From Puniceicoccaceae bacterium (GTDB lineage Bacteria > Verrucomicrobiota > Verrucomicrobiae > Opitutales > Coraliomargaritaceae), in the NCBI GenBank assembly GCA_902516225.1, contig CABXXS010000006.1, positions 1-33,983 on the forward strand: a stretch of DNA of 33,983 nt, given 5' to 3'. Each line of letters starts with the position of its first letter. Positions within the stretch are counted from its first letter, which is position 1. A model generated the notes under the pieces. The model was not told where the DNA came from. It did no database searches and saw only the letters and a list, made by a program, of their open reading frames with translations. Positions 1-33,983 of this stretch are shown in pieces. The position numbers and the translations under genes are program-made.

Positions 1-142
1 GCGCGAAGATTTCGTCTGCTGTTGGGTGATCACGCTTTTCGAGTAACTGCGCAAAAATGTGTTCTCGCTGCTTGGTAGAGCGTTGGCCGCCAGCCTTTAA
101 AGCGTTGTCTAACAGTTTCTTATATTTTGATTTGAGGTGCAT
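1..142 (-). CDS. Fur-family transcriptional regulator, N-terminal fragment (left copy)
   Basis: The reading frame starts at an ATG (complement of 140-142) and runs off the window edge after 47 codons. The translated start contains QRSTKQREHIFAQLLEK followed by DHPTADEIFA. This is the usual opening of the Fur/PerR/Zur winged-helix domain: an R-x-T-x-Q-R-like helix, then DHP-A-EI. The metal-binding residues and dimerisation domain lie outside the window, so iron, peroxide or zinc specificity cannot be told. There is no Shine-Dalgarno sequence. The gene is preceded by three palindromic operator-like sites and follows the 566-aa sulfatase in the same direction. It is identical to 33842-33983. Confidence 0.82.
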   Translation of the reverse strand, partial: MHLKSKYKKLLDNALKAGGQRSTKQREHIFAQLLEKRDHPTADEIFA

Positions 143-181
143 AATATTAGCTTATTAAGTAGTAGAATACCTTATATATAA

Positions 182-245
182 TGAGAATTATTCTAAATAA
201 GCAGATATTTGAGAGTATCTCAAGTATTAATTAGAATAATTCTAA
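182..245 (-). promoter_or_regulatory. Triple Fur/PerR-like palindromic operator array (left copy)
   Basis: Three 15-bp inverted repeats with 7-1-7 geometry lie between the 566-aa sulfatase and the Fur-family gene. They are TGAGAATTATTCTAA at 182-196 (one mismatch between arms), TTGAGAGTATCTCAA at 209-223 (one mismatch) and TTAGAATAATTCTAA at 231-245 (perfect). The perfect site closely resembles the PerR/Fur box layout (TTATAAT-N-ATTATAA). Autoregulation of the adjacent Fur-family gene is the simplest reading. This is inferred from motif and position only. Confidence 0.6.
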
Positions 246-318
246 ATATTCCGATAACCCGCTTTCCCAAAAGGTAGACCTCAATACTGCTCGCTAGTTG
301 CCAATAACGCCTGATGGT

Positions 319-2019
319 CTAGTGCGATTCGAGACGGTTGCGATTTTTGCTGATGTCCTGAATCATTTCGTGAAGTATTTGCCTATGCTTTGTCGCTACT
401 TTTGATTGGCTTTTCGCTAGGTTCTCCCACTCATGAGGGTCTGTACGATGATCATAAAGTTCTTCTTTGCCGTTATTATAGCGAATATAACGATAATCTT
501 TGCTACGTATTGAGTAGTGATGTGCCCCTTGCTTATTCGAAGCTTTTGGATCGTGTACGAGTGTGAGAGCTGCATTTGGCCCTTCCCAGACTTTGGATTC
601 TGGATTTTCAAGCAGGGTTCGGAGGCTATAACCGTCGAGAAATGCACCCTTTGAATCCATTCGGTTATCTGTTGGTAGACCACAAAGATCAACAAGTGTG
701 GGATATAAGTCTATAAGTGACACTGGTATATTGGAAACCTTAGAGCCGGGAACAGACAATGATGGAGCGCGAATAAGTAGAGGAACACGGCAGGATTCTT
801 CCCAGGGTGAAGCCTTGAAGAGCCATTCTTTTTCGCCTACATTAAAGCCATGATCGCTAGTAATGATAACAATTGTATTTTCAGCCAGGGTACTATTTTC
901 TAGCGCATTAAGAACAGTGCCAATGGAATCATCAACAGCTGCAACACAGGCAAGGTAGGCTTGTGTATAGACACGCAAAGCATGCAACTTATCTTGGTCG
1001 TAAGACTCTAAGAGTGTCTGGTAGTAACGTGGTCCTTTGTTCCGGTCTTTATTTCTCGCAGGAACCAAGTCATGCATGTGAGTATCATTTATATCATTTT
1101 CTACTAACTGCGCGATCAAGACTTGATCGATGATACCGCTTTTTTCGAGAGGAAATAAATCAAAGTACTTTTGTGGGGCGTGCAGCGGAGTATGTGGCCG
1201 CACAAAACCTACAGCTAAGAAAAATGGTTCTTCTGAGGTTTCCAGTTCTTTGATTTGATTGACAGTCCAATAGGCATTACGCTCATCAGGCGTGGGATCC
1301 CGGTCATCCTTGCTGACGTAGCGGAAGGGAGCGCCCCAATAAGGAATGCCTCCACAGAAGAACCGCTCGCCATTTTTTCGCTTCGGGGAATTCCATGCGC
1401 TCTCTAAAGATCCGTAAGAACCATCTATATTTCCAATTTCCCTAAAAGGGTTTGGCACGTCCGGAAGGGCACCGAGAGTTTTACCTGAAGTTCCCCAGTA
1501 GGGTCCGTAATCGGTCAAGTGTTCGTAGTGCGACCACTCACGAGCGCGGTTTTCCGCAGACTTTGGGCTATTATTATTTCGGTAGCCAGCCCACATGTGG
1601 TGGCTTACTTTTCCACTGCCGATTGCTCTATAGCCGTTTTCTTTGAAGAAACGATTGAGAGTGAAGCTCTTTTTAGCCACTTCACTACGCTCGTACCATT
1701 CTTCCCAAAAGTAGCACTCGCTGGTTTGATGGTAGAGCCCATACATCATGCTAGAGCGCGAAGGAGCGCAGACGGGATTGTTGCTATACGCAAGAGGAAA
1801 GGTCGTGGCCGACTTTGCGAAGCGGGCGATATTAGGGGTCACCGTTTGTGGATGCCCCTCTTGTCCTCCTATGTCACAGACCCAATCATTTAAATCGTCA
1901 CAAATGATAAAGAGTACATTCGGTCTTTCAGCTGCGATTGAAAAGCTACCTATCAGGCAAAAAGAACAAAAAATGTGAGCGTAAATGTGAAGTCGGGATA
2001 TTCGTAAGAAACTAAACAT
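319..2019 (-). CDS. Secreted type I sulfatase, iduronate-2-sulfatase-like (left copy)
   Basis: This 566-aa protein would hydrolyse sulfate esters on a sugar, probably outside the cytoplasm. It has an N-terminal signal peptide (about residues 1-30, ending SIAA). The calcium-binding pair D41-D42 lies in IICDDLND. The maturation motif is C84-A-P-S-R88, whose Cys would become formylglycine. Further conserved sites are GK136-137 with H140, RPH at 274-276, and S-D389-H390-G. The length and the GFVRPHTPLHAPQKYFD block are typical of iduronate-2-sulfatase-like enzymes, but the real substrate is probably an algal polysaccharide and not a glycosaminoglycan. It lies 77 bp downstream of the symporter gene and 176 bp upstream of the Fur-family gene. 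It resembles the sulfatase at 18419-20023. It is identical to 31965-33665. Confidence 0.9.
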   Translation of the reverse strand: MFSFLRISRLHIYAHIFCSFCLIGSFSIAAERPNVLFIICDDLNDWVCDIGGQEGHPQTVTPNIARFAKSATTFPLAYSNNPVCAPSRSSMMYGLYHQTSECYFWEEWYERSEVAKKSFTLNRFFKENGYRAIGSGKVSHHMWAGYRNNNSPKSAENRAREWSHYEHLTDYGPYWGTSGKTLGALPDVPNPFREIGNIDGSYGSLESAWNSPKRKNGERFFCGGIPYWGAPFRYVSKDDRDPTPDERNAYWTVNQIKELETSEEPFFLAVGFVRPHTPLHAPQKYFDLFPLEKSGIIDQVLIAQLVENDINDTHMHDLVPARNKDRNKGPRYYQTLLESYDQDKLHALRVYTQAYLACVAAVDDSIGTVLNALENSTLAENTIVIITSDHGFNVGEKEWLFKASPWEESCRVPLLIRAPSLSVPGSKVSNIPVSLIDLYPTLVDLCGLPTDNRMDSKGAFLDGYSLRTLLENPESKVWEGPNAALTLVHDPKASNKQGAHHYSIRSKDYRYIRYNNGKEELYDHRTDPHEWENLAKSQSKVATKHRQILHEMIQDISKNRNRLESH

Positions 2020-33665: not shown

Positions 33666-33738
33666 ACCATCAGGCGTTATTGGCAACTAGCGAGCAGTAT
33701 TGAGGTCTACCTTTTGGGAAAGCGGGTTATCGGAATAT

Positions 33739-33802
33739 TTAGAATTATTCTAATTAATACTTGAGATACTCTCAAATATCTGCTTATTTAGAATAATTCT
33801 CA
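33739..33802 (+). promoter_or_regulatory. Triple Fur/PerR-like palindromic operator array (right copy)
   Basis: Three 15-bp palindromes stand upstream of the Fur-family start: TTAGAATTATTCTAA at 33739-33753, TTGAGATACTCTCAA at 33761-33775 and TTAGAATAATTCTCA at 33788-33802. Centre spacings are 22 and 27 bp, close to two and two and a half helical turns. A TATATA at 33804-33809 directly after the third site could be the -10 element, which would put that site inside the promoter and suit autorepression. The promoter assignment is tentative. Confidence 0.6.
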
Positions 33803-33841
33803 TTATATATAAGGTATTCTACTACTTAATAAGCTAATATT

Positions 33842-33983
33842 ATGCACCTCAAATCAAAATATAAGAAACTGTTAGACAACGCTTTAAAGGCTGGCGGCCA
33901 ACGCTCTACCAAGCAGCGAGAACACATTTTTGCGCAGTTACTCGAAAAGCGTGATCACCCAACAGCAGACGAAATCTTCGCGC
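33842..33983 (+). CDS. Fur-family transcriptional regulator, N-terminal fragment (right copy)
   Basis: The ATG at 33842 opens 47 codons that run off the window edge. The mirror copy at 1-142 stops at the same base. The sequence MHLKSKYKKLLDNALKAGG precedes the DNA-binding segment (QRSTKQREHIF, then DHPTADEIFA). This is the first half of the Fur winged-helix domain, shared with PerR, Zur and Nur. Nothing ties it to carbohydrate sensing. Its position after the sulfatase may be accidental or may connect iron or oxidative status to the cluster. Confidence 0.82.
   Translation, partial: MHLKSKYKKLLDNALKAGGQRSTKQREHIFAQLLEKRDHPTADEIFA

Follow-up and report, generated by a model that had tools for sequence, protein, structure and literature searches.

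Chimeras formed during strand-displacement amplification (MDA) are reported to be mainly inverted joins (406 of 475), in which two segments of one locus lie in opposite orientation, joined where a few bases are complementary (Lasken and Stockwell 2007, PMC1855051). Most of them span less than 10 kb and were seen as reads; inverted chimeras spanning more than 10 kb form a rarer class (69 of 406), for which complementary bases are reported at only 34.8% of the joins (PMC1855051). Palindromic reads have been described as pervasive in MDA long-read data (PMC13265396), and ligation-based nanopore libraries were reported to produce inverted-repeat chimeric reads (PMC13141652). At the contig level, exact mirror copies within single contigs of an environmental bacterium were regarded as very likely products of assembly and dropped from a single-cell data set; in the passage describing these contigs, the first half mirrors the second and no long spacer is mentioned (PMC12755884). 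Inverted extra copies of ordinary genes are also described for living cells, namely the tandem inversion duplication or inverted triplication (ODIRA) of yeast, which shows short homology at the join, comprises three copies and is reported to start at short interrupted inverted repeats (PMC4689423).

The window analyzed here, a stretch of 33,983 nucleotides from a Puniceicoccaceae bacterium, shares features with the MDA chimeras, the mirrored single-cell contigs and the tandem inversion duplications. The preliminary description had claimed a perfect inverted repeat at its two ends, and a direct comparison of the two arms bore this out: positions 1–7122 (left arm, minus strand) are identical to the reverse complement of positions 26862–33983 (right arm, plus strand), with 0 mismatches in 7122 bases. 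The identity breaks at 7123 and 26861, inward of both ends, and its length is far above chance. Between the arms lies a single-copy core of 19,739 bases (7123–26861, plus strand), which carries a polysaccharide-degradation cluster according to its open reading frames, Pfam hits and matches in a relative. From the outer end inward, each arm starts with 142 nt of the 5' part of fur, followed by a sulfatase (S8), an MFS_2 transporter, a GH2 hydrolase and the C-terminal portion of a further sulfatase (S7). The outer arm end thus falls within the fur gene. Since the limits of the window coincide exactly with the arm ends, the window is almost surely one whole contig.

To find the native place of the arm, the window was compared with related genomes. 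The nearest is a Tara Oceans Opitutae MAG, CAJWHF01 (uncultured Opitutae ERR599050_bin.126; hereafter G001), which is 95–97% identical. A search of the whole of G001 gave a single full-length match to the arm, on contig C6 (35071–42191, 95% identity); two short arm pieces on contig C25 were only 72% and 75% identical. The C6 match crosses the right boundary of the arm into the core (25818–26861), with one alignment spanning 25873–33983. Beyond the arm, C6 carries the rest of fur, which was confirmed by Pfam scan, and then genes read as a suf operon. Most of the core (7123–25789) matches contig C1 (51435–70104) at 97% identity. The ends of C1 and C6 have a 97-nt stretch in common with 3 mismatches, so the two contigs probably adjoin in the G001 genome, with the core on the left and the arm on the right. 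At this point (25782–25872 of the window) G001 has about 2.9 kb of extra sequence between S6 and S7, made up of a C1 tail of 2122 nt and a C6 tail of 884 nt with the 97-nt overlap. By reading, this stretch looks like one further sulfatase-type gene and is a strain difference.

The same arrangement was found in other relatives. In AG-913-J04 (L022), the order S2-SASA-S3-S7-GH2-MFS_2-S8 on one strand agrees with that of the window core and right arm, and in another locus (L021) the order is S3-BD-FAE-S7-GH2-MFS_2. AG-913-J04 is, judging by the style of its name, presumably a single-cell genome. Relatives with this GH2 gene are Opitutia and Puniceicoccaceae records, AG-913-J04 included. Together with the closeness to G001, this assigns the window to a marine bacterium of Opitutia type (Verrucomicrobiota, Puniceicoccaceae lineage). 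When the DNA of 26000–33983 was searched against 14 genomes of the genus, some match was obtained in 10, and the GH2/transporter unit was matched by DNA similarity in five (G001, G005, G008, G011 and G014). In each of these five the unit occupies one place; in G008 it is one unit split over two contigs. At the protein level, the transporter has one close homologue in each of three relatives (63–83%), the other matches listed being at most 35% identical. Since the sole full-length arm match in G001 stands to the right of the core, these comparisons indicate that the right arm (S7 end, GH2, MFS_2 transporter, S8 and the first 142 nt of fur) is in its native position and that it is the left junction that has been altered.

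A further possibility is that the arms are the long terminal repeats of a mobile or linear element, or that they bound a segment able to invert. The one feature in its favor is geometry, namely long exact inverted repeats flanking a gene cluster. The arm ends fall inside fur and inside S7, and in G001 the same genes lie on chromosome-like contigs without such repeats. The Pfam scan of 16 window proteins gave no transposase, integrase, recombinase or replication family, which supports within that scope the earlier statement that no mobile-element machinery accounts for the repeat, and a plasmid search with 5000–9500 as query returned no match. An element of this kind is therefore highly improbable.

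At the left junction two sulfatase genes are broken, a feature that the preliminary description had not recorded. Positions 7121–7231 (plus strand) can be read in frame as the C-terminus of a sulfatase, here called Sup, that has 468 aa in G001 (L016:10138-11544); 35 of the last 36 residues agree and the stop codon is included, and the remaining 432 codons are absent from the window. On the other side of the join, the left S7 copy (6639–7122, minus strand) stops at the join and is listed as an ORF of 147 aa, identical to the C-terminal portion of S7 (448 aa), whereas the right copy (25999–27345, plus strand) runs through the core/arm boundary and is contiguous on C6 of G001. The left arm thus meets the core within one sulfatase gene, Sup, and is itself broken off within a second, S7. 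On C1 of G001 the left edge of the core is preceded by Sup, not by an arm. This contig extends 51 kb further left of the core match; the nearest 11.4 kb carries sulfatases and sugar-catabolism genes (named by reading) and nothing matching the window, and the search of all G001 detected no second arm elsewhere on C1. In UBA7374 (L019), a more distant member of Opitutia, homologues of Sup (80%), S1 (65%) and S2 (81%) are consecutive and Sup is whole. The in-frame remnant, together with the position of Sup beside the core in G001 and UBA7374, points to Sup as the native left neighbor of the core, in whose place the left arm stands. A DNA search with Sup-S1 gave some match in 8 of 14 genus genomes, but only G001 matched over the Sup-S1 join, the other matches being short or partial (65–88%). 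As this join was found by DNA in none of the other 13 genus genomes, support for the adjacency comes from G001, from the remnant in the window and from L019.

UBA7374 also differs in the position of the S7-GH2-MFS_2 unit (L019:8338-22880), which, unlike in G001 and L022, lies to the left of Sup-S1-S2; it is in direct orientation there and not inverted. The different placement shows that this unit changes place in evolution and has moved within the locus between relatives.

Taken with the relatives, the left arm is very probably an artificial inverted (fold-back) chimera that arose during amplification or assembly, with its join at 7122/7123. The preliminary description had offered an artificial fold-back join and a recent duplication as its two readings; the relatives favor the former, and no positive support was obtained for the doubled gene dosage and the flipping of the core attached to the latter. 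In the proposed course of events, the chromosome would carry Sup, the core and S7-GH2-MFS_2-S8-fur in this order, and a single copy of the arm. Followed leftward along the minus strand through the core, the sequence breaks off in the last Sup codons, resumes on the other strand within S7 at 26862, with a GTGC common to both sides, and then repeats the arm outward. During MDA, the displaced 3' end could re-prime on a displaced strand and so create the inverted join. Alternatively, an assembler could have walked one graph segment twice owing to a few chimeric reads, which would yield an identical contig. Given such a join in the data, an assembler following the arm outward from each side of the core would produce two arms; as both would derive from one sequence, they would match exactly and stop at the same position.

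Several features agree with such a join. The second segment is inverted relative to its native orientation, and the GTGC at 7119–7122 (plus strand) is common to both parents when G001 is taken as the stand-in for the missing core-side parent; at least four common bases are expected at 1.6% of random joins. The inverted second arm, the zero divergence and the mirror-symmetric contig ends together fit an inverted template-switch chimera. The fold-back join is not in G001, which is another strain, and a 36-base sequence across 7122/7123 had no exact match in genome_contigs or viral_contigs, collections from which the window's own genome or near genomes may be left out, so that the absence of a match carries little weight. 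The join is like the described MDA chimeras in uniting two inverted segments of one locus over few complementary bases. It differs in that it lies in an assembled contig for which amplification would have to be assumed, and in that the joined points are 19.7 kb apart, whereas distances below 10 kb are usual in the class, though not defining. This spacing falls in the rarer class above 10 kb and counts against an artificial origin, as does the low share of joins with complementary bases (34.8%) reported for that class. Likewise, the window resembles the mirrored single-cell contigs in its exact copies within one contig, but has a 19.7-kb unique core between them. Missed long-read adapters were considered as another source and rejected, since the mirrored copies that they give lie directly side by side, with no spacer such as the 19.7 kb seen here.

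It was also checked whether the assemblies of relatives contain similar terminal repeats. The control set comprised 29 short contigs, 16 of about 60 from G001 and 13 of about 30 from G011, of which 24 were readable and the five all-N contigs (L065-L069) were left out. None of the 24 readable contigs had a terminal inverted repeat of more than 1 base or an inverted repeat of at least 200 bases at more than 95% identity. A high artefact rate in the G001 and G011 assemblies is thus not indicated, which also counts against the artificial origin. When this control is repeated, all-N contigs are a trap, as they pass a reverse-complement test as perfect palindromes.

The main alternative is that this strain really acquired an inverted duplication very recently, either by microhomology template switching in vivo or in the form of an asymmetric tandem inversion duplication. 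The latter consists of direct, inverted and direct copies, and the window would cover the point where the inverted copy meets one of the direct ones. A single contig from such a structure would look alike, with an inverted copy, a short common sequence and identical arms, and the S7-GH2-MFS_2 unit has in fact shifted position between relatives, as its placement in UBA7374 indicates. Tandem inversion duplication is reportedly known from Salmonella as well as from yeast (ODIRA). The locus resembles such duplications in its inverted extra copy of ordinary genes and the short homology at the join. A tandem inversion duplication has three copies with the middle one inverted; here two arms are visible, and the contig ends at both arm ends.

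A short interrupted inverted repeat, as reported for ODIRA (PMC4689423), is not evident at the joined points. On the arm side, no exact inverted repeat of at least 7 bases lies closer than about 100 bases to the join; the core side has one 7-nt inverted pair about 100 bases off, and in G001 a 9-nt pair about 80 bases off. Such a repeat could, however, have been removed by a later deletion. The arm differs from the G001 copy by 320 substitutions in 7.1 kb, whereas the two arms show no difference, which bounds their divergence below about 4e-4 (3/7122), under 1% of the divergence to G001. A real duplication would therefore need to be extremely young or homogenized; an artificial fold-back join predicts exactly zero differences. 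In addition, G001 has no second arm. On this evidence a real duplication is unlikely. If it were true, it would double the dosage of the GH2 and transporter genes, leave one Sup copy destroyed at the junction, and represent a snapshot of the natural amplification of a GH2/transporter/sulfatase module in a marine Opitutia strain in the ocean.

With an artificial fold-back join as the preferred explanation, the contig should not be taken for a change in gene dosage, a polysaccharide locus that can invert or a complete inverted-terminal-repeat element. Gene tables built from it would count the arm genes twice, and positions 1–7122 are best omitted from gene counts of the organism.

The core and right arm themselves are likely an ordinary degradation cluster for sulfated galactan, the substrate being deduced from gene content. 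According to Pfam they contain eight sulfatase-domain genes, the GH2 hydrolase, the MFS_2 transporter, SASA-type and BD-FAE-type esterases, a GFO/IDH/MocA oxidoreductase, a PhoD-like protein and a 3-keto-disaccharide hydrolase-like protein. A protein of 712 aa (20083–22221) had no hit in the Pfam scan, but about 360 of its C-terminal residues match solved beta-agarases (best E-value 1.1e-66). This resemblance makes an agar- or porphyran-like sulfated galactan the likely substrate. As a minor observation, S7 may be translated from a rare start codon, or the gene may be impaired: in the window and G001 alike, the region 25870–25999 has no in-frame ATG, GTG or TTG before the metal-binding DDLGFGD motif, and in the S7 of UBA7374 an ATG is present at the equivalent position.
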